Positions 10,731 to 22,184 of a stretch of DNA of 64,000 nt are shown piece after piece (the first letter of the stretch is position 1; every line of letters starts with the position of its first letter). This DNA is from Luteimonas marina (lineage in GTDB: Bacteria > Pseudomonadota > Gammaproteobacteria > Xanthomonadales > Xanthomonadaceae), in assembly GCF_007859325.1 (NCBI RefSeq), contig NZ_VOHK01000001.1, positions 310,001-374,000 on the forward strand. Reading direction: 5' to 3'. The position numbers were made by a program, and so were the translations under genes. Under the pieces are notes generated by a model. That model had not been told where the DNA came from. It did no database searches and saw nothing but the letters and a program-made list of their open reading frames with translations.

Positions 10731-12107
10731 TCACCCACGCTTCCACCGCACTCCCTGCGGCGTATCCTCCAGCAGAATCCCTTCCGCAGCCAACTGGTCC
10801 CGAATCGCATCCGCCCGCGTGAAATCCCGCGCCTTCTTCGCCGCGGCCCGCTCCTCGATCAGCGCTCGGATGCGCGCATCGTCGTCCCCGGACGCGCCGC
10901 GCGCGAACCAGGCCTGCGGCGACTGCTGCAGCAGGCCCAGCGCGAGCCCGGCGCCAAGCAGTTCCGCCTTGAGTTGCTGCCGATCCCCGGCGTCCTCCGC
11001 CTTGCGCGCCTCGCCCGCGATGCGCGCGACCTCGGCCAGCGCCGCCGGCGTGTTGAGGTCGTCGTCCAGCGCGTCCTCCACCGCCTGCGGGATGACCGGG
11101 GCCGTTTCGACGGCCGCCAGGTCGCGCAGCGTGCCGTACAGGCGGTCGAGCGTGCGCACGCTCTGCTCGATCAGCGCGTCCGACCAGTCCAGCGGCTGGC
11201 GGTAGTGCGCCGAGAGCAGGGCGTAACGCAGCGCCTCCGGCGGATGCTGCCGCACCAGGTCGTGGATCTTTTCGATGTTGCCCAGCGACTTCGACATCTT
11301 CGCGCCTGACAGGGTCAGCATGCCGTTGTGCAGCCAGACGCGGGCGAAGATGTGGCCGCCGTGGGCGCACTCGCTCTGCGCGACCTCGTTCTCGTGGTGC
11401 GGGAACTGCAGGTCGACGCCGCCGGCGTGGATGTCGATGGTCTCGCCCAGGTGCGCCTCGGCCATCGCCGAGCACTCGATGTGCCAGCCGGGGCGGCCGC
11501 GGCCCCAAGGGGAGTCCCAGCCGGGGAGATCGTCGGTCGAGGGCTTCCACAGCACGAAGTCGCCGGGATCGCGCTTGTACGGCGCCACCTCGACGCGGGC
11601 GCCGGCCAGCATCTCGTCCGGGTCGCGCCGCGACAGCCTGCCGTAGCCGGCGAAGGTGCCGACCGCGAACAGCACGTGGCCCTGCGCGGCGTAGGCGTGG
11701 CCGCTGTCGATCAGGCGCTGGATCATGGCCACCATCGCGCCGATGTGGGCGGTGGCCGCCGGTTCGATGTCGGGGGCGAATGCGCCGTCCACGCCCAGCG
11801 CCGCCATGTCCTCGCGGTAGGCGGCGGCGAAGCGGTCGGTGATCGTGGCGATCGGCACGCCGGCCTCGCGCGCCGCGGCGTTGATCTTGTCGTCGACGTC
11901 GGTGATGTTGCGGGCGTAGCGCAGCGCGCCGTAGCGGCGGCGGAGCAGGGCCGCGAGCACGCCGAACACCACCGGCCCGCGCGCATTGCCGATGTGGACG
12001 TAGTTGTAGACGGTCGGCCCGCACACGTACATCGTCGGGCAGGCCGGGTCGATCGGCGCGAAGGCCTCGGGCTGGCGGGTGAGGCTGTTGAACAGGCGCA
12101 GGGACAT
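10731..12107 (-). CDS. cysS: Cysteinyl-tRNA synthetase
   Basis: A class I aminoacyl-tRNA synthetase of 458 residues that charges tRNA-Cys. Signatures: [18 protein letters not shown] (zinc Cys and the HIGH-type motif HIGN), WHIECSAMA and [12 protein letters not shown] for the remaining zinc ligands, and [10 protein letters not shown] for the KMSKS loop. The C-terminal DALR-type domain is complete. ATG 12107 (MSLRLFNSL) gives the family length; the frame is open further upstream but without homology. It is divergent from a secreted hypothetical protein with 164 bp between them. Confidence 0.96.
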
Positions 12108-12271
12108 CGGCACGCGGCGGCGGAAAACCGTCGATTCTAGAGCGTGTCGCGCGCCTTGCAGCATTTTCCGCGTGCGCGGGGCTTCTTCGGGGTCGCGACG
12201 GCCGGCACCGGGGCGCGACGGCACCGGGATTCAGCCGGGGGCCGGCCAGCGCCCCCTACACTGCGCCGGCA

Positions 12272-12784
12272 ATGACCCGAGTTCCGACTTTCCCCGTCCT
12301 CCGATCGTGCAGGCTGCTGTTCGCCGGCTGGGCCCTGTGCCTCGCGCTGCCCGCGATGGCGCAGGCGGAACCCGATCCCGAACCCGCGCCGGCGCGCCAG
12401 CCGGAGAACGTCCGGGTCGAGTACGCCCAGGTGCTGCGCGCCGAACCCGTCTACCAGACCCTGCGCGCGACCACCATGGTCGAGCGCTGCGAGGCGTCGA
12501 CGCCGGTCGAGGAGGCGCAGGAGAACAAGACCGGGATCGCCCGGGTCCTGGGTGCGGTCAAGGGCGCACTGACGCCCGATCCGAAGGTCGAGGAGGTCGC
12601 GCCGTCGGCGGGTGGACAGTGTCGCCTGGTGCCGCTGGAGCGCGAGTTCCGCCGACCGATCGCCTACGACGTCGACTACGTCCACCGCGGCGTGAAGTAC
12701 CGCTCGCGGCTTCCCGCCGATCCGGGCAACCGCGTGCGCGTGCGCGTCTCGGTGACCCCGGTGGTTTCATCCGAAACCCCCTGA
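12272..12784 (+). CDS. Secreted hypothetical protein
   Basis: A 170-residue protein with a signal peptide (about residues 1-33, hydrophobic core LLFAGWALCLALPAMAQA). The mature part has two Cys (in VERCEAS and GGQCRLV) that could form a disulfide and a C-terminal segment IAYDVDYVHRGVKYRSRLP followed by RVRVRVSVTP. That ending recalls the C-terminal half of SlyB / 17-kDa surface-antigen-like envelope proteins, but no Gly-zipper is present. Probably periplasmic; function unknown. It is transcribed toward the arginine cluster, and the hairpin at 12962-12987 could be its terminator. Confidence 0.7.
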   Translation: MTRVPTFPVLRSCRLLFAGWALCLALPAMAQAEPDPEPAPARQPENVRVEYAQVLRAEPVYQTLRATTMVERCEASTPVEEAQENKTGIARVLGAVKGALTPDPKVEEVAPSAGGQCRLVPLEREFRRPIAYDVDYVHRGVKYRSRLPADPGNRVRVRVSVTPVVSSETP

Positions 12785-12822
12785 GCGCGCGATTGTTGCA
12801 GTGCGTGCGCCGCCATGCGACG

Positions 12823-12927
12823 ATGCGCGCCGTGAAAAACACCCTTGCCCGTGCCGACATCCTGACCTCCGCCCGCATGGCGGCGGGCATGACCTCGCGC
12901 GCGCGTCGACCGGACCCCTTTGCCTGA
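12823..12927 (+). CDS. Putative arginine leader peptide ahead of argF
   Basis: A 34-codon frame (ATG 12823) ending MTSRARRPDPFA then TGA at 12925-12927. In-frame ATGs at 12877 and 12889 would give 16- or 12-residue peptides with the same ending. Three of four consecutive codons near the end are arginine: CGC 12898, GCG, CGT 12904, CGA 12907. The stop codon sits directly before the first arm of an antiterminator. No strong ribosome-binding site is visible, so which start is used is open. Read as the sensor peptide of an attenuator; this is inference from layout. Confidence 0.5.
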   Translation: MRAVKNTLARADILTSARMAAGMTSRARRPDPFA

Positions 12928-12987
12928 GCTGGGTCGACCGGACGTTTTCCTCGTCATGCCGAAACCCAGCCCGAGGCTGGGTTTTTT
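12905..12987 (+). promoter_or_regulatory. Putative ribosome-mediated attenuator of the arginine operon
   Basis: Four segments can be read. Segment 1 (12905-12911, GTCGACC, covering the Arg codons) pairs with segment 2 (12932-12938, GGTCGAC). Segment 2 (12928-12934, GCTGGGT) also pairs with segment 3 (12964-12970, ACCCAGC), and segment 3 pairs with segment 4 (12975-12984) to form the terminator. A ribosome stalled on Arg codons would cover segment 1 and allow 2:3 (read-through); a ribosome at the stop codon would cover segment 2 and allow 3:4 (termination). The pairings are seen in the sequence; the mechanism is inferred. Confidence 0.6.
12962..12987 (+). terminator. Strong intrinsic terminator 50 bp before argF
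   Basis: A 10-bp stem (AAACCCAGCC with GGCTGGGTTT, loop CGA) ends in a run of six T. It lies between the secreted hypothetical gene and argF, in the sense direction, so it is either the terminator half of an attenuator or the end of the upstream gene. Confidence 0.88.
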
Positions 12988-13036
12988 CGTTTCTGTACTC
13001 CCGAATTCCGCAACATTTCCGAGCCAGGATGTCGTC

Positions 13037-14041
13037 ATGAAGCACTTCTTGAACACGCAGGACTGGAGCCGCGCCGACCTCGACGCCCTGCTGACGCAGG
13101 CCGCCCTGTACAAGCAGCACAGGATCGGCGACGCGCTCAAGGGGCGCTCGATCGCGCTGGTGTTCTTCAATCCGTCGATGCGCACCCGCACCAGCTTCGA
13201 GCTGGGCGCGTTCCAGCTCGGCGGCCACGCGGTGGTGCTGCAGCCCGGCAAGGACGCGTGGCCGATCGAGTTCGACCTGGGCACGGTGATGGACGGCGAC
13301 ACCGAGGAGCACATCGCCGAGGTGGCGAAGGTGCTGGGACGCTACGTCGACCTGATCGGCGTGCGCGCGTTCCCGAAGTTCGTGGACTGGGCCTACGACC
13401 GCGAGGACATCGTGCTGAAGTCGTTCGCGAAGTACTCGCCGGTGCCGGTGATCAACATGGAGACGATCACCCATCCCTGCCAGGAGCTGGCGCACGCGCT
13501 GGCGCTGCAGGAGCATTTCGGCACCAGTGACCTGCGCGGGAAGAAGTACGTGCTGACCTGGACCTACCACCCCAGGCCGCTCAACACCGCGGTCGCGAAC
13601 TCCGCGCTGACCATCGCCACGCGCCTGGGCATGGATGTGACCCTGCTGTGCCCGACGGAGGAATACATCCTCGACGAGCGCTACATGGGCTGGGCGCAGG
13701 ACAACGTCGCCGAAAGCGGCGGCTCGTTCCAGGTCAGCCACGACATCGACAGCGCCTACGCCGGCGCCGACGTGGTCTACGCCAAGAGCTGGGGTGCGCT
13801 GCCGTACTTCGGCAACTGGGCGCCGGAGAAGCCGATCCGCGACCAGTACCAGCACTTCATCGTCGACGAGGCCAAGATGGCGCTGACCAACAACGGCGTC
13901 TTCAGCCACTGCCTGCCGCTGCGGCGCAACGTCAAGGCGACCGATGCGGTGATGGACTCGCCCAACTGCATCGCGATCGACGAGGCCGAGAACCGCCTGC
14001 ACGTGCAGAAGGCGATCATGGCCGCGCTGATGCAGCGGTAG
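13037..14041 (+). CDS. argF': N-acetyl-L-ornithine carbamoyltransferase
   Basis: A 334-residue transcarbamylase that makes N-acetylcitrulline from N-acetylornithine and carbamoyl phosphate, the Xanthomonas-type replacement for ornithine carbamoyltransferase. Carbamoyl-phosphate site SMRTRTS is at residues 47-53 and HPCQELAHAL is near the middle; the ornithine loop is replaced by FSHCLPLRRNVKATD near the C-terminus, as in the acetylornithine enzymes. DAWPIEF (Trp 75) and TEEHI (Glu 90) correspond to the positions that favour acetyl over succinyl substrates in the Xanthomonas enzyme. First structural gene of the arg run, with CCAGGA before the ATG and the attenuator-like element upstream. Confidence 0.95.
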   Translation: MKHFLNTQDWSRADLDALLTQAALYKQHRIGDALKGRSIALVFFNPSMRTRTSFELGAFQLGGHAVVLQPGKDAWPIEFDLGTVMDGDTEEHIAEVAKVLGRYVDLIGVRAFPKFVDWAYDREDIVLKSFAKYSPVPVINMETITHPCQELAHALALQEHFGTSDLRGKKYVLTWTYHPRPLNTAVANSALTIATRLGMDVTLLCPTEEYILDERYMGWAQDNVAESGGSFQVSHDIDSAYAGADVVYAKSWGALPYFGNWAPEKPIRDQYQHFIVDEAKMALTNNGVFSHCLPLRRNVKATDAVMDSPNCIAIDEAENRLHVQKAIMAALMQR

Positions 14042-14058
14042 CGCTTCCTGCTTTGCTC

Positions 14059-14164
14059 CTTCCCCTGCGTGCGGGGGAAGGCCGGGATGGGGGAAAACGG
14101 CCTCCGGAACGTTTCACCCCGTCCCTTGCCCCCACCCCAACCCTCCCCCGCAAGCGGGGGAGGG
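14059..14164. repeat. GC-rich inverted repeats between argF' and argG
   Basis: Two hairpins of the same family: one near 14059-14081 (CCTTCCCC with GGGGAAGG) and one at 14141-14164 (CCCTCCCCCGC with GCGGGGGAGGG). Dispersed intergenic repeats; they interrupt the arg run and could act as processing or weak termination sites. Confidence 0.65.
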
Positions 14165-14185
14165 GGCTCAAACCGAGACTTCGAC

Positions 14186-15388
14186 ATGACTGCGTCCGAT
14201 TCCAAAGACATCGTTCTCGCCTTCTCCGGCGGACTCGACACCAGTTTCTGCGTGCCCTACCTGAAGGAGCGCGGCTGGAACGTGCACACGGTGTTCGCCG
14301 ACACCGGCGGCGTCGACGCCGATGAGCGCGCGTTCATCGAGCAGCGCGCCGCCGAGCTGGGCGTGGCCAGCCACCTCACCGTCGACGGCGGTTCGGCCAT
14401 CTGGTCGGGCTTCGTCAAGCCGTTCGTGTGGGCGGGCGAGGGTTACCAGGGGCAGTATCCGCTGCTGGTGTCGGACCGCTACCTGATCGTCGATGCCGCG
14501 CTCAAGCGCGCCGCGGAGCTGGGCACCAACGCCATCGCCCATGGCTGCACGGGCATGGGCAACGACCAGGTGCGCTTCGACCTCGCGGCCAAGGCCAGCG
14601 GCGACTACCGCATCGTGGCGCCGATCCGCGAGATCCAGAAGGAACACACCCAGACCCGCGCCTACGAGCAGGCCTATCTGGAAGAGCGCGGCTTCGGCGT
14701 GCGCGCCAAACAGAAGGCCTACACCATCAACGAGAACCTGCTGGGCGTGACCATGTCCGGCGGCGAAATCGACCAGTGGGAGGCGCCGGGCGAGGGCGCG
14801 CGCGGCTGGTGCGCGCCGCGCAGCGCGTGGCCGGTCGAGCCGCTGAGCGTGCGCCTGAAGTTCGTCGAAGGCGAGGCGGTCGAGCTCGACGGCAAGTCGC
14901 TGCCGGGCGAGCAGATCCTCGCCGCGCTCAACCGCCTGTTCGCGCCCTACGGCGTCGGCCGCGGGCTGTACACCGGCGACACGGTGATCGGCCTGAAGGG
15001 CCGCATCGTCTACGAGGCGCCGGGCCTGGTGGCACTGCTCACCGCGCACCGTGCGCTGGAAGAGGCGGTGCTGAGCAAGCAGCAGAACCGCTTCAAGCCG
15101 GAAGTGGCGCGCAAGTGGGTGGAGCTGGTCTACGAGGGTTTCTTCCACGATCCGCTGAAGACCGACCTCGAGGCCTTCCTGGCCTCGTCGCAGGCCAAGG
15201 TCAACGGCGAGGTCGTGCTGGAGACCCGCGGCGGGCGCGTGGATGCGGTCGCGGTGAGTTCGCCTCACCTGCTGCATTCCAAGGGCGCCACCTATGCGCA
15301 GTCGGCCGACTGGGGCGTGGAGGAGGCCGAGGGCTTCATCAAGCTGTTCGGGATGAGCAGCACGCTGTGGGCGGAGGTCAATCGCTGA
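14186..15388 (+). CDS. argG: Argininosuccinate synthase
   Basis: A 400-residue ATP-dependent ligase joining citrulline and aspartate. The PP-motif of the ATP pyrophosphatase fold is intact at the N-terminus ([16 protein letters not shown]), followed by [22 protein letters not shown] and the C-terminal multimerisation part. The ATG at 14186 gives the usual length; the frame is open upstream through a repeat. In this pathway citrulline comes from deacetylation of acetylcitrulline by the next gene. Confidence 0.96.
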
Positions 15389-15400
15389 GGCCACCCGATA

Positions 15401-15469
15401 TGTCATCCCGAACGCAGTGAGGGATCTTTCCCTCCGGAGAGAAGATGTCTCGCTGCGCTCGACATGACA
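15401..15469. repeat. Dispersed inverted repeat between argG and argE
   Basis: Ends TGTCAT and ATGACA, with internal AAGATCC-like and CGCAGTGAG / CTCGCTGCG partial complements. It is the TGTCATCCCGAACGCAGTGAG family of intergenic repeat, related at its tips to the units at 4667 and 23618. Confidence 0.55.
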
Positions 15470-15483
15470 GGAATAGAAACCAC

Positions 15484-16572
15484 ATGTTGCAGACCATCCT
15501 CCAACACCTCGAAGCCCTGGTGTCCTTCGACACCCGCAACCCGCCGCGCGCGATTACCACCGGCGGGATCTTCGACTACATCCGCGCGCAGCTGCCGGAC
15601 TTCCGCGTCGAGGTCACCGACCACGGCGCCGGCGCGGTGTCGCTGTTCGCCGTGCGCGGCGGGCCGACGCGGCTGTTCAACGTGCACCTGGACACCGTGC
15701 CCTCGTCGCCGCACTGGAGCGCCGATCCGCTCAGGCTGCGGGTGACGGACGAGCGCGCCATCGGCCTCGGCGCCTGCGACATCAAGGGCGCGGCCGCGGG
15801 CCTGATCGCCGCGGCGCAGGCCACGCAAGGCGACGCCGCCTTCCTGTTCAGCAGCGACGAGGAGGCCAACGACCCGCGCTGCATCGACGCCTTCCTCGCC
15901 CGCGACCACGGTTTCCGCGACGTGGTCGTCGCCGAGCCCACGCAGTGCGAGGCGGTGCTGGCCCATCGTGGCATCAGCGCGGTGCGCATGGATTTCCGCG
16001 GCAAGGCCGGCCACGCCTCCGGCGCGAGTGCGGTCGACGCCAGCGCGCTGCACCACGCCGTGCGCTGGGGCAATCGTGCGCTGGAGTTCATTGCCATGGA
16101 GTCGCACCGCCGCTTCGGCGGACTGACCGGGCTGCGCTTCAACATCGGCCGCATCGAGGGCGGGATCAAGGCGAACGTGATCGCGCCGGCGGCGGAACTG
16201 CGCTTCGGCTTCCGGCCGCTGCCCTCGCACGACATCGACCAGTTGCACGCGGCGTTCCGCGGTTTCGCCGCGCCGGATGCGCTCGGCGAGTACGAGGAAA
16301 CCTTCCGCGGGCCGCCGCTGCCCGCCGGCGACGTCGCCGGCGCCGAGGACCGGCGGCTGGCCGCGCGCGACCTCGCCGACGACCTCGGCCTGCCGATCGG
16401 CAACGCCGTCGACTTCTGGACCGAGGCCTCGCTGTTCTCGCGCGCGGGCCTGACCGCGCTGGTCTTCGGCCCCGGCGACATCGCCCAGGCGCACACCGCC
16501 GACGAGTGGGTGTCGCTGGACCAATTGCAACGCTACGGCGGCATCGTCCGCAACATCCTCGGACCAGCATGA
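15484..16572 (+). CDS. argE: N-acetyl-L-citrulline deacetylase (M20 family)
   Basis: A 362-residue M20 zinc amidohydrolase. In Xanthomonas this enzyme removes acetate from N-acetylcitrulline, completing the acetylated pathway; related ArgE proteins act on acetylornithine. Metal motifs: VHLDTVPSS (His and Asp), [10 protein letters not shown] with the bridging Asp, [11 protein letters not shown] with the catalytic Glu, and a C-terminal AHTADEWV His. The ATG at 15484 follows the dispersed repeat. Its stop overlaps the next start by 4 bp (ATGA), so translation is coupled to the synthase-kinase. Confidence 0.92.
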
Positions 16573-17891
16573 ACATCGAAGCCAACAGGCAGACCCGGCA
16601 GACCATCGTGCGCCTGCTTTCGAGCATGGCCAGCGCGAAGGAGATCAGCCAGTACCTCAAGCGCTTCTCGCAGCTCGACGCCAAGCGCTTCGCCGTGGTC
16701 AAGGTCGGCGGCGCGGTGCTGCGCGACGACCTGGAGGCGCTGACCTCGTCGCTGTCGTTCCTGCAGGAAGTGGGGCTGACGCCGATCGTGCTGCACGGTG
16801 CGGGGCCGCAGCTCGACGCCGAGCTGTCCGCCGCCGGCATCACCAAGCAGACCGTCGACGGCCTGCGCGTGACCTCGCCCGAGGCACTGGCGATCGTGCG
16901 CAAGGTGTTCCAATCGTCCAACCTCGCCCTGGTCGAGGCACTGCAGCAGAACGGCGTGCGCGCGACCTCGATCACCGGCGGCGTGTTCGAGGCCGACTAT
17001 CTCGATCGCGACACCTACGGCCTGGTCGGCGAGGTGCGCAGCGTGAACCTTGCGCCGATCGAGGCCAGCCTGCAGGCGAGCTCGATCCCGGTCATCGCCA
17101 GCCTCGGCGAGACCGCGTGCGGGCAGATCCTCAACATCAACGCCGATTTCGCCGCCAACGAACTGGTGCGCGTGCTGCAGCCCTACAAGATCATCTTCCT
17201 GACCGGCACCGGCGGCCTGCTCGACGCCGACGGCAGGCTCATCGATTCGATCAACCTCTCCAGCGAGTACGAGCACCTGATGCAACAGCCGTGGCTCAAC
17301 GGCGGCATGAAGGTCAAGATCGAGCAGATCAAGGACCTGCTCGACCACCTGCCGCTGGAGTCCTCGGTCTCGATCACGCGGCCGGCGGACCTGGCCAAGG
17401 AACTTTTCACCCACAAGGGCTCGGGCACGCTGGTGCGCCGCGGCGAGAAGGTGGTGCGCGCGACGGACTGGGGCGCGTTCGACCTCGACCGCCTGCGCGA
17501 ACTGATCGAATCCAGCTTCGGCAGGCGGCTGGCGCCGGACTACTTCGAGAAGACGTCGCTGCTGCGCGCCTACGTCAGCGAGAACTACCGCGCCGCGGTG
17601 ATCCTCGTCGACGGCGACGGCATGACCTACCTCGACAAGTTCGCGGTGCTCGACGACGCGCAGGGCGAAGGCCTCGGTCGCGCGGTCTGGAACGTCATGC
17701 GCGAGGAGACGCCGCAGCTGTTCTGGCGCTCGCGCCACAACAACCAGGTCAACATCTTCTACTACGCAGAGTCCGACGGCTGCTACAAGCAGGACAGGTG
17801 GAAGGTGTTCTGGTACGGGCTGGACGGCTTCGACGGCATCCAGAAGGCGGTGGCCCACTGCGCCACGCGCGCGCCGACGCTGCTGGACTGA
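16569..17891 (+). CDS. argB: Bifunctional N-acetylglutamate synthase-kinase
   Basis: A 440-residue fusion of an amino-acid kinase domain (about residues 1-285; [37 protein letters not shown]) and a GNAT acetyltransferase domain (about 290-440; [29 protein letters not shown]). It catalyses both acetylation of glutamate and phosphorylation of N-acetylglutamate, as shown for the Xanthomonas and Maricaulis enzymes, which resemble vertebrate NAGS. Arginine inhibition is expected from the family. It replaces separate argA and argB genes. Overlaps argE by 4 bp; a GNAT gene starts 2 bp after its stop. Confidence 0.94.
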
Positions 17892-17893
17892 CG

Positions 17894-18505
17894 ATGGCCG
17901 CGATCGCACTCCCGTCGGCATGGCGCAGCGTACCGAGGCTCGTCGGCCGCCATGCCGTGCTCGAACCGCTGCAGGCCGCGCATGCCGACGGCCTGCGCGC
18001 CGCGGTGGAGGGCAGCGGGCTCGACCGGCTCTGGTACACCAACGTGCCTGCGCCGGCGCGCGTGGCGGCCTACGTGGACGGCGCGCTGGAAGCGCAGGCG
18101 GCCGGCCGCGTGCTGGCCTTCGCGGTACGCGAGCCCGGCGGCGATGTCGTCGGCACGACCCGCTTCTACGGGCTGGAGCCGGAGGTGCCGAGGTTGCTGC
18201 TCGGCTACACCTGGTACGCCCCGCGCGTGCAGCGCACCGGCGTCAATACCGAATGCAAGCGGATGCTGCTGGAACACGCCTTCGACACGCTGGACTGCGC
18301 CAGCGTCGGCTTCGAGACCAGCTGGTTCAACCACGCCTCGCGTGCGGCCATCGCCCGGCTCGGCGCGAAACAGGATGGCGTGCTGCGCAACCACAAGCGC
18401 CACGCCGACGGTTCGCTGCGCGATACCGTGGTGTTTTCCATCCTCGACACGGAATGGCCGGCGGTGCGCCGGCACCTGCAGTCCCGACTGGACGATCATC
18501 CATGA
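17894..18505 (+). CDS. GNAT-family N-acetyltransferase
   Basis: A 203-residue RimJ/RimL-like acetyltransferase. It shows the pattern [17 protein letters not shown] at the N-terminus, then [23 protein letters not shown] and the region [29 protein letters not shown] typical of this subfamily (the latter part includes the acetyl-CoA loop and the W-FN/S-R end). Substrate unknown. It is embedded between the synthase-kinase and argC with 2-bp spacing and a 4-bp overlap, an order shared by xanthomonad arg clusters as I recall it. Confidence 0.88.
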
Positions 18506-19485
18506 GCAAGGCCCCCGTTTCCCTCGGCATCGTCGGCGCCCGCGGCCATACCGGCAGCGAGCTGATCCGGCTGGTCGCCGCGCACCCGCGGTTCGAACTG
18601 GCGTTCGTGTCCTCGCGCGAGCTGGACGGCCAGCGCGTGGCCGGACACAGCGACGCCTACACCGGCGATCTGTGCTTCGAGAACCTCGATGCCGACGCGG
18701 TGGCCGCGAAAGGCGCCGACGCCGTGGTCCTGGCCCTGCCCAACGGCAAGGCCGCACCCTATGTCGCGGCGCTGGATGCGGCGAAGCCGGACACGGTGAT
18801 CGTCGACCTGTCGGCCGACCATCGCTTCGACGAGCACTGGTACTACGGCCTGCCGGAACTGACCCGGGCGCGCTACGAAGGTTCGAAGCGCATCAGCAAT
18901 CCCGGCTGCTACGCGACCGCGATGGAACTGGCGATCGCGCCGGTGCTCGACCGGCTGGCCGGGCCGCCGCAGTGCTTCGGCGTGTCGGGCTATTCCGGCG
19001 CCGGCACGACGCCCTCGGACAAGAACAACGTCGAACTGCTGCGCGACAACCTGATGCCGTACGCGCTGGCCGAGCACATGCATGAGCGCGAGGTGTCGCG
19101 CCACCTCGGCGTGCCGGTCGAGTTCATGCCGCACGTGGCGCCGCACTTCCGCGGCATCACCATGACCGTGAACCTGTGGCTGCAGCAGCCGGTGAAAGTG
19201 GAGGACGTGCGGGCGCTGTACCGCGACCGCTACGCAGGCGAGCCGCTGCTGCGGGTGGGTGACGACGCGCCCTGGGTCAGCCGGATCGCCGGCAGGCATG
19301 GCGTCGAGATCGGCGGCTTCACCGTGGCGCCCGGCGGCAAGCGCCTGGTGGTCGTGTCCACGCTCGACAACCTGCTCAAGGGCGCGGCGACGCAGGCGAT
19401 GCAGAATCTCAACCTCGCATTCGGGTTCGACGAACTGGCCGGGATTCCGGCGGACGCATTCCTTTCGCAGGAGGACGGCCGATGA
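18502..19485 (+). CDS. argC: N-acetyl-gamma-glutamyl-phosphate reductase
   Basis: A 327-residue NADPH-dependent reductase giving N-acetylglutamate semialdehyde. N-terminal Rossmann motif [16 protein letters not shown], the active-site Cys in [14 protein letters not shown] (about residue 135), and the catalytic His in [11 protein letters not shown]. The start overlaps the GNAT stop (ATGA) and its own stop overlaps argH, so the genes are tightly coupled. Confidence 0.96.
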
Positions 19486-20774
19486 GCGACCTGCTGTGGC
19501 AGAAGCCCGGCGTGACCGTGGACGCCGGGATCCAGCGCTTCCTCGCCGGCGACGACGTGCTGCTCGACCGCGAGTTCTTCCTGCACGACATCCAGGCCAG
19601 CGCCGCGCACGCGGAAGGCCTGCAGCGCATCGGCATCCTCTCGGGGGATGAGCTCGACAGCCTCAAGCGCGAGCTCGCGCAGCTGGCCGACGACTTCCGC
19701 GCCGGCGGTTTCGTGCTCGACGAGCGCTACGAGGACGGCCATTCCGCGATCGAGGCGCGCCTGACCGAACGCCTCGGCGACGCCGGTCGCAAGATCCACA
19801 CCGGCCGCAGCCGCAACGACCAGGTGCTGGTGGCGACGCGCCTGTGGCTGAAGGAAAAGCTGGCGCGCGTGGCGCGGCTGGGGCGCGAGATCGCGCGGGT
19901 GGCGCTCGACCGCGCGCGGGCCGAGCGCGACCTTCCGTTGCCCGGCTATACCCACATCCAGCGCGCCGTGGTGTCCTCGGCGGGCATGTGGTGGGCCGGC
20001 TGGGCCGAGGCCTTCATCGACGATGCGGTCCGCGCCGCCGACACGCTGAAGCTGGTGGACTGCAATCCGCTGGGCACTGCCGCCGGCTACGGCGTCAACC
20101 TCGGGCTCGATCGCGAACACACGACGCAGGCGCTCGGTTTCGCGCGCATGCAGGTCAGTCCGATCTACGCCCAGCTGTCCCGCGGCAAGTTCGAACTGGC
20201 CGCGCTGGAGGCGCTCGGCAGCGCCACGCTCGACCTGCGCCGTATCGCCTGGGACCTGTCGCTGTTCACCAGCGCCGAGTTCGGCTTCGTCGCGCTGCCG
20301 TCGCAATACACGACCGGCAGCTCGATCATGCCCAACAAGCGCAATCCCGACGTGATCGAACTGATGCGCGCCACGCACGCCAGTGTCGCCGCGGCGCGCA
20401 CCGAGATCGAGCAGCTGCTGTCGCTGCCCTCTGGCTACCACCGCGACCTGCAGGCCAGCAAGGGCGCGATCTTCCACGGCTTCGGCCGCGGCCTGGCGGC
20501 GCTGGAGCTGCTGCCGGCGCTGCTGGCCAACCTCGAATGGCGCGAGGCGCAACTGCGCGCGGCGATCGATTCTGGCATGTACGCCACCGACGTGGCGGTG
20601 GAAGCCGCCGTCGCCGGCGTGCCGTTCCGCGAGGCCTACAAGGCCGCCGCGGCGTCCGCCGACAGCGCCGGGCAGGGACGCACGCCGGAAGGCAGCCTCG
20701 CCGCGCGCGTCTCGCCCGGTGCCGCGGCGGACCTGCGCCTCGACGAACTGCAGGCCCGCTGGGAGGCGCTGTGA
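19482..20774 (+). CDS. argH: Argininosuccinate lyase
   Basis: A 430-residue member of the fumarase/aspartase superfamily that releases arginine and fumarate. Signature [17 protein letters not shown] (about residues 280-296) is intact, with [10 protein letters not shown] near residue 105 and the catalytic His in [10 protein letters not shown]. Slightly shorter than the E. coli enzyme (457). Overlaps argC by 4 bp and the following YciI-like gene by 4 bp (GTGA). Confidence 0.96.
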
Positions 20775-21040
20775 ACGCGCCGGCGACGCGCTACCTGGTG
20801 CTGCTGATGCGGCGGCCCGGTTTCGACGAGGCCCTGGTCGCGCCGCACCTGGCCTTCCTCGACGGGCTGCGCGCCGATGGCCTGCTGGAGCTGACAGGCG
20901 GCTTCGGCGACCGCAGCGGCGGCGCCTACCTGCTGCGCGGGGTGGCGGATCTCGATGCGGCGAAGGCCATCGTCGAACGCGACCCGCTGGCGATCCACGG
21001 CGCGTCGGACATCGTCGTCCACGAGTGGAACACGCGCTGA
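20771..21040 (+). CDS. YciI-family protein
   Basis: An 89-residue YCII-domain protein starting at GTG 20771, which overlaps the argH stop. It has the ferredoxin-like pattern [26 protein letters not shown] with the conserved His, and the ending FxxRDPLxxHG ([12 protein letters not shown]) typical of the family. YciI-like proteins bind small ligands and may have hydrolase or dehalogenase-like chemistry; the role here is unknown. It lies 4 bp before proB. Confidence 0.88.
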
Positions 21041-21044
21041 GCCG

Positions 21045-22184
21045 ATGAACACGCACGCCTTCTCCGAACAGCGCCTGCCGCCCTGGCGGCGCGCCGTGCT
21101 GAAGGTCGGCAGCAGCCTGCTGGCCGCGAACGGCGGCGGACTGTCGACCGAGTACGCGCAGGCCATCGCCGGTTTCGTCGTCGCCTCGCACAAGGCCGGG
21201 CGCGAGGTGGTGGTGGTGTCCTCGGGTGCGGTCGCGGCCGGCCGCGCGATCATGCGCGAGCAGCCGCACGACGGCGCCGAGATGGCCGAGCGCCAGGCGC
21301 TGGCCGCGCTGGGGCAGGCGCGGCTGATCGGCTTCTGGCAGGGCCTGCTCGACCGCCAGGTGGCGCAGGTGCTGCTGACCCACGACGACCTGCGCAACCG
21401 CCGCCGCTACCTCAACGCCCGCGCCACGCTGTCGGCGCTGCTGCGCCATCGCGCGGTGCCGGTGGTGAACGAGAACGACACGGTCTCGGTCGACGAGCTC
21501 AAGCTGGGCGACAACGACAATCTCGCCGCGATCGTCGCTGCGCTGGTCGATGCCGACGTGCTGTTCATCGCCACCGACATCGACGGCCTGTACGACGCCG
21601 ATCCGCGCCGCCATCCGGACGCGCGCCCGGTGGAGGTGGTGCCGCAGCTCACGCCCGCGCTGCTCTCGGCCGCAGGCGGTACCGGCAGCGCGATCGGCAC
21701 CGGCGGCATGCGCACCAAGCTCGAAGCGGCGCAGCGCGCCTCCGCCGCGGGCGTGGCGACGGTGCTGTTCAACGGCACCCGCGCCGACGTGCTGGAAGCG
21801 CTGGCGCAGGACCGCCTGCGCGGCACGCGCATCCATGCGCTGCGCAGCCGCGTGGCCGTGCGCAAGCACTGGCTGCAGAACGCGCCGGCGGAGCCGGGCG
21901 GCGTCGTCGTCGACGCCGGCGCGGCCAATGCGCTGGTGGAGAAGGGCGCCTCGCTGCTGCCGGGGGGCGTGGTCACGGCCGAGGGCGATTTCCGTCGCGG
22001 CGACATGGTCGAGGTGCTGCTGCGCGACGAGCGCGGCACCCGTCGCGTCGCGCGCGGCGTCAGCCAGTATTCCGCTGCCGACATCCGTCGCGTCGCGCGC
22101 CGCCATTCGCGCGACATCGAATCCATCCTCGGCTACAGCTATGGCGATACGATCGTGCATCGCGACGATTTGATGCTGTTGTAG
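21045..22184 (+). CDS. proB: Glutamate 5-kinase
   Basis: A 379-residue enzyme phosphorylating glutamate in proline synthesis. N-terminal amino-acid kinase domain (VLKVGSSLLA, VVVVSSGAVAAGRAIM, VPVVNENDTVSVDELKLGDN, FIATDIDGLYDADPR) and a C-terminal PUA domain (about residues 285-370). The start ATG 21045 follows the YciI-like stop by 4 bp. The proline pair is attached to the arg run, both pathways drawing on glutamate. Confidence 0.96.
   Translation: MNTHAFSEQRLPPWRRAVLKVGSSLLAANGGGLSTEYAQAIAGFVVASHKAGREVVVVSSGAVAAGRAIMREQPHDGAEMAERQALAALGQARLIGFWQGLLDRQVAQVLLTHDDLRNRRRYLNARATLSALLRHRAVPVVNENDTVSVDELKLGDNDNLAAIVAALVDADVLFIATDIDGLYDADPRRHPDARPVEVVPQLTPALLSAAGGTGSAIGTGGMRTKLEAAQRASAAGVATVLFNGTRADVLEALAQDRLRGTRIHALRSRVAVRKHWLQNAPAEPGGVVVDAGAANALVEKGASLLPGGVVTAEGDFRRGDMVEVLLRDERGTRRVARGVSQYSAADIRRVARRHSRDIESILGYSYGDTIVHRDDLMLL

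Follow-up and report, generated by a model that had tools for sequence, protein, structure and literature searches.

The region at positions 12796-12987 of the window (the whole stretch of 64,000 nucleotides analysed here) is most probably a ribosome-mediated attenuator of transcription through which charged tRNA-Arg is sensed and the argF'GEBCH cluster of Luteimonas marina is controlled; the probability of this reading, which draws on sequence comparison and folding calculations, is put at about 0.9. Transcription is proposed to begin on the start codon of a short leader peptide or 1-2 nt ahead of it, so that the end on which the ribosome loads would be nearly leaderless. As long as arginyl-tRNA is abundant, the ribosome would pass the R-A-R-R codons, reach the stop codon and cover segment 2, whereupon segments 3 and 4 would form a terminator and arg transcription would end. 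When arginyl-tRNA is scarce, the ribosome would stall at the arginine codons, the last of which is the rare CGA, and segment 2 would stay free to pair with segment 3 once the latter has been made, allowing the polymerase to read into argF'. Without translation, segment 1 could hold segment 2, which would favour termination. The signal is inferred to be a shortage of arginine, and termination in vivo to be efficient. The parts of the system are listed below.

12796-12801, forward strand: -35 element TTGCAG (TTGCnn is conserved; position read from the sequence).
12819-12824, forward strand: -10 element GACGAT, with TGC directly upstream (extended -10; nAnnAT is conserved).
12832-12927, forward strand: leader-peptide ORF of 31 residues with a GTG start, MKNTLARADILTSARMAAGMTSRARRPDPFA followed by the stop (placed by the Xoo5 alignment, synonymous changes in the core and promoter spacing).
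12898-12909, forward strand: sensor codons CGC-GCG-CGT-CGA (Arg-Ala-Arg-Arg), ending in the rare CGA; Arg is conserved in relatives.
12905-12911, forward strand: segment 1, GTCGACC, pairing with GGTCGAC at 12932-12938 (from sequence and folding).
12928-12934, forward strand: segment 2, GCTGGGT, the 5' arm of the antiterminator, which abuts the stop codon and pairs with ACCCAGC at 12964-12970.
12962-12971, forward strand: segment 3, the arm common to antiterminator and terminator (pairing conserved in relatives).
12975-12987, forward strand: segment 4 and the T-run of the intrinsic terminator (3:4 pairing conserved).
13037-14041, forward strand: argF' (N-acetylornithine carbamoyltransferase; Pfam OTCace_N/OTCace), predicted to be the first gene controlled.
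14186-22184, forward strand: argG, argE, argB (NAGS-kinase), a GNAT gene, argC, argH, a YCII-domain gene and proB (from Pfam; gene starts approximate).

The product of argF' shares 83-93% identity with N-acetylornithine carbamoyltransferases from the same family and carries both carbamoyltransferase domains (Pfam), and the gene begins 50 nt after the end of the terminator. The order of genes downstream of the leader, argF'-argG-argE-argB-GNAT gene-argC-argH-YCII gene-proB, forms an arg-pro cluster that agrees with the clustered arg operon described in X. campestris (PMC1865377). In X. oryzae, loss of sRNA-Xoo1 was reported to lower the argG and argF' products (PMC3039613, Table 4). The gap between argF' and argG (14042-14185) contains many hairpins, gives spurious microRNA matches in Rfam and is perhaps a repeat element. 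Xanthomonas and Stenotrophomonas loci (e.g. L048 and L016) carry a conserved motif, GTTTCAnnnGCAAGA, between the terminator and the start of argF', which was not seen in the window.

The promoter is conserved in relatives as TTGCnn, a spacer of 17 (95 of 101 distinct relatives) and then TGC-nAnnAT. The start codon of the leader follows nAnnAT by 7-10 nt in 97 of these 101, and is ATG in 89, GTG in seven and CTG in five. The earlier note had begun the frame at ATG 12823, which was rejected as the leader start since it sits inside the -10 box (GACGAT, 12819-12824); the promoter conserved in relatives and the 5' end mapped for the homologous RNA of Xanthomonas move the start to GTG 12832. The end of the frame is as that note described it, with CGC-GCG-CGT-CGA shortly before a stop codon (TGA) at 12925-12927. 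The transcription start is expected at approximately 12831-12832, which would make the leader nearly leaderless. The refuting case named earlier, a transcription start for argF' downstream of 12987, is countered by the promoter and by 5' RACE of the homologous Xoo5 RNA (PMC3039613), both of which place the start upstream of the leader.

The overlapping segments 1:2 and 2:3 and the terminator 3:4 likewise lie where they had first been placed, the terminator (within 12962-12987) being composed of ACCCAGCC and GGCTGGGT with the loop CGA and a T-run. Segments 2/3/4 read GCTGGGT/ACCCAGC/GCTGGGT in most of the window's family and GCCGGGT/ACCCGGC/GCCGGGT in family f12, and the same switch of all three is found within the window's family (L017, L024, L036, L062 and L075). 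Across 58 aligned leaders, the central triplet of the segments is T/A/T in 39 and C/G/C in 15, and 97% of cells are paired in register, as opposed to 16-41% when the segments are slid against each other. In the 3:4 terminator helix, pairing is 100% and two-sided changes number 19, a result matched by none of 500 shuffles, and in 38 aligned leaders the 2:3 antiterminator is 97.7% paired, with six U-A to C-G changes. By the argF' tree, the C/G/C switch within the window's family represents only about 3-4 independent changes, too few for a sign test to reach significance, to which the switch between families adds one or two; therefore, the strength of the covariation lies in the agreement of three segments and not in the number of events. 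In 101 of 119 distinct leaders, CGA is followed 21 nt later by segment 2, and the stop codon overlaps or abuts this segment in nearly all of the 119. The sequence checks proposed earlier all favour the attenuator: its reading frame, its arginine codons and both alternative pairings (2:3 and 3:4) recur in Luteimonas, Lysobacter, Xanthomonas, Stenotrophomonas, Pseudoxanthomonas and further relatives, where segments 2, 3 and 4 change in concert. At the level of sequence comparison, the anatomy of the element, its conservation, the triple switching of segments and the spacing are established, and the conserved frame, Arg codons, pairings and spacing support the earlier proposal that the geometry is that of classical ribosome-mediated attenuation, in this case for arginine.

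The alternative folds were calculated for each ribosome position, with a modelled ribosome footprint that reaches 16 nt past the first P-site base. For the RNA of the window up to the end of segment 3, a stall at or before the Arg codons is predicted to give the antiterminator with P(2:3)=0.99, and with the ribosome at the stop codon the predicted 2:3 pairing is zero and 3:4 forms with P=1.0. The same behaviour is calculated for the 119 distinct leaders: with the A site at CGA, P(2:3) exceeds 0.5 in 100% of them, and with the ribosome at the stop codon it does so in 1%, the terminator being formed in 100%. The first hairpin is predicted to form early, with P(1:2)=0.94 once transcription of the window is at 12940. 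In 98% of the 119 relatives, segment 2 is paired upstream (P>0.5) before segment 3 is made, and this pairing is the 1:2 hairpin, typically CCGG-CCCA with UGGG-CCGG. For the full-length RNA stalled at Arg, the calculated 2:3 and 3:4 folds are near in energy; thus, the model depends on 2:3 forming first.

A covariance model built from 38 leaders found a single match in the Luteimonas marina genome, at this site, and matched 243 of 299 genomes of the order, with strong matches in families f1 and f12 (and f2 and f3). Each of the 69 matches compared precedes argF' by 23-154 nt and shares its strand. Weak matches (E ~1e-4) in families f4-f10, and those in genomes that have no argF', were left out of the evidence, and f4-f10 were judged by their Arg runs and segments. 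Among 274 genomes of the class, the element was detected at E<=1e-7 only in three, which belong to the window's own family. The question of whether argR is missing, raised with the original observation, could be answered: no match to PF01316 or PF02863 was obtained in the Luteimonas marina genome (100% complete; control profiles were found), and PF01316 is absent from 192 of 200 genomes of the order. All eight genomes that do have ArgR come from family f11; there, argR lies near the arg operon on the opposite strand, the first gene of that operon is argD-like, and no leader was detected. Since the leader is conserved across an order that is almost entirely without ArgR, ribosome stalling probably senses arginine in place of this repressor. 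A regulon search of the Luteimonas marina genome yielded no convincing Arg-run leader for carA or argD. Upstream of carA (L199, G000:C1), a strong terminator-like hairpin with a T-run, unaccompanied by an Arg-run ORF, lies approximately 40 nt before the gene and is possibly a separate (pyrimidine) attenuator. A genome pattern search with CGNGCNCGNCGNCCG was set aside because it gave too many chance matches.

The core of the leader peptide, MTSRARR, is invariant in 97 of 97 distinct leaders of the window's family and in 26 of 26 from three other families (123 distinct), with Arg at all three core Arg positions in each set. Among 80 genome loci and another 30, the core is intact in all but one, the exception being L052, in which the core ATG reads ATT. 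Third codon positions vary (ACC, ACG or ACT for Thr, CGT or CGC for Arg, and GCG, GCC or GCT for Ala), and because the residues are invariant while these positions change, the MTSRARR codons bear a coding signature. For the last Arg codon (12907-12909 in the window), all 97 distinct leaders of the window's family and 24 of the 26 from other families use CGA, yet CGA accounts for 2 of 204 Arg codons in the arg genes of the window and, among 80 relatives, for 9 of 1307 in argF'. A cause at the RNA level might also underlie the conservation of CGA, which borders segment 1. In more distant families, Arg runs occur at the same place in unrelated peptides, for example RRRRR (f4), RRRR (f6), RRLRRP and RRPRR (f7), RRRRP (f8), RRRSRRP (f9) and RRRPRPR (f10), and reach p<=0.05 against dinucleotide shuffles in 16 of 26 loci of f4 and f6-f10. 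The persistence of Arg runs in unrelated peptides argues for the codons, and not the peptide, as the sensor. At one locus (L163, G007:C7:33601-34401), argF' is preceded by a tandem pair of Arg leader ORFs that are nearly identical and both end in GRRARRTRRPLLAG, and the attenuator region seems to be duplicated.

The Met, Thr, Ser and Ala residues of MTSRARR are conserved beyond the needs of a pure codon counter. One tentative and rather doubtful extension of the attenuator model is that the order, having lost ArgR, placed the pathway under a leader peptide on an essentially leaderless mRNA, in which the conserved MTSRARR and the invariant CGA would add a peptide- or codon-specific stall that sharpens arginyl-tRNA sensing beyond the classical mechanism. 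The invariance of the four residues amid synonymous changes in the 123 distinct leaders would also suit nascent-peptide arrest, in which MTSRARRP, like SpeFL or TnaC, would stall the ribosome on free arginine or a related metabolite and this, instead of uncharged tRNA-Arg, would drive the switch. Such arrest is improbable, since in the more remote families the switch and the Arg runs persist while the peptide does not, and since the retained rare CGA suits a sensor of decoding rate. Moreover, arrest by arginine would free segment 2 and turn the pathway on at high arginine, which is the wrong direction for biosynthesis.

The attenuator reading also bears on a published RNA. In X. oryzae, sRNA-Xoo5 was identified by cDNA cloning, Northern blot and 5' RACE between PXO_00354 and PXO_00353 (PMC3039613), the latter encoding an N-acetylornithine carbamoyltransferase according to the same paper (PMC3039613). 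The corresponding Rfam model, RF02242, aligns end to end with window positions 12833-12956 at 28.6 bits, which is under its curated cut-off of 50. At other Xanthomonas loci, where it occupies the corresponding position before argF' and its first bases read CUAUG, the model reaches 143-147 bits; the 5' RACE end of Xoo5 (PMC3039613) is 2 nt before the leader ATG. These alignments and scores, together with the location of PXO_00353, identify the published sRNA as the argF' leader RNA, although RF02242 is typed as an sRNA and not as a leader or attenuator, and the model ends before the terminator. A cmscan search of 12000-14000 against Rfam detected no T-box, riboswitch or other family except Xoo5. 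The earlier remark that no leader-peptide attenuator of arginine synthesis was known in these bacteria holds within a literature search that covered few subscription papers and no preprints: it turned up neither an arginine attenuator for this order nor a paper treating Xoo5 as one. The RNA itself was already present in Rfam as a presumed sRNA.

Xoo5 measured 124 nt by RACE and cloning and approximately 130 and 100 nt on Northern blots, with size changes during growth phases (PMC3039613). The terminated RNA expected in Xanthomonas, of approximately 165 nt, is longer than these species, and because the cloned 3' end precedes the hairpin, processing or truncation must be assumed. The Northern signals and growth-phase changes (PMC3039613), and the fact that released leader RNAs can act in trans, are what speaks for a trans-acting sRNA, as Xoo5 was published, whose resemblance to an attenuator would be incidental. 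This is very unlikely, given that an sRNA would require neither the fixed place 23-154 nt before argF' seen in 69 of 69 compared cases nor coding-type synonymous variation, a stop codon at segment 2 or a maintained antiterminator.

When only the window is considered, the case is modest, and it is conservation that settles it. The fold z-score of the whole region is -0.52, a 7-nt complement to segment 3 occurred in 120 of 5000 shuffles, and an Arg run of such strength is no better than chance, turning up in approximately 0.2-0.3 of the shuffles made of comparable leaders; among the three strong terminators of the 64-kb window, this one alone has an upstream copy of its 3' arm. The weak single-genome Arg run and z-score would fit an ordinary terminator that insulates or dampens argF' behind a chance Arg-containing frame, but this is the least probable explanation of all, since the frame, Arg codons, spacing and segment 2 are conserved across four families, with Arg runs in six more, and a plain terminator has no need of segment 2.

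Within the searched literature, arginine had been without a described ribosome-mediated transcription attenuator in its biosynthetic operon. The leader covers most of the order and coincides with the loss of the widespread ArgR, and the single family with argR is without the leader, which gives a clear instance of an RNA attenuator and a protein repressor trading places. The findings also re-explain a published 'sRNA' of a rice pathogen and offer a natural system for translation-transcription coupling on leaderless mRNAs.

Classical ribosome-mediated attenuators control the his, trp, leu, thr, ilv and pheA operons of proteobacteria. Like them, the argF' leader combines codons for the amino acid of the pathway in a leader peptide, overlapping 1:2, 2:3 and 3:4 pairings, an intrinsic terminator before the first structural gene and a stop codon beside segment 2. 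Unlike them, it concerns arginine, has, in place of a ribosome-binding site, a start codon that coincides with the transcription start or follows it by 1-2 nt, uses a very short segment 2 (7 nt) and stands in for an absent repressor. Among short leader ORFs with Arg codons, the nearest known is ORF34 (SpeFL) of the Salmonella speF leader, in which ribosome pausing on consecutive Arg codons at low arginine changes RNA folding (PMC6386406). However, SpeFL controls ornithine decarboxylase via Rho, access to the ribosome-binding site and RNase G, and not an intrinsic terminator of the arginine pathway (PMC6386406); the HIRRT core of SpeFL/DUF2618 is absent from the Luteimonas marina leader peptide, and the two peptides are unrelated. 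A further likeness is the carA leader, where a leader peptide and suspected attenuation also precede a gene, in that case one common to arginine and pyrimidine synthesis. PMC4997734 cites for P. aeruginosa a leader peptide, pyrimidine control possibly by attenuation and separate transcriptional control by arginine, and states that no such carA leader peptide was found in P. syringae DC3000. Against this background, the proposed mechanism of the argF' leader is classical; within the searched literature, its novelty lies in serving arginine, in taking the place of ArgR and in starting at a leaderless end.
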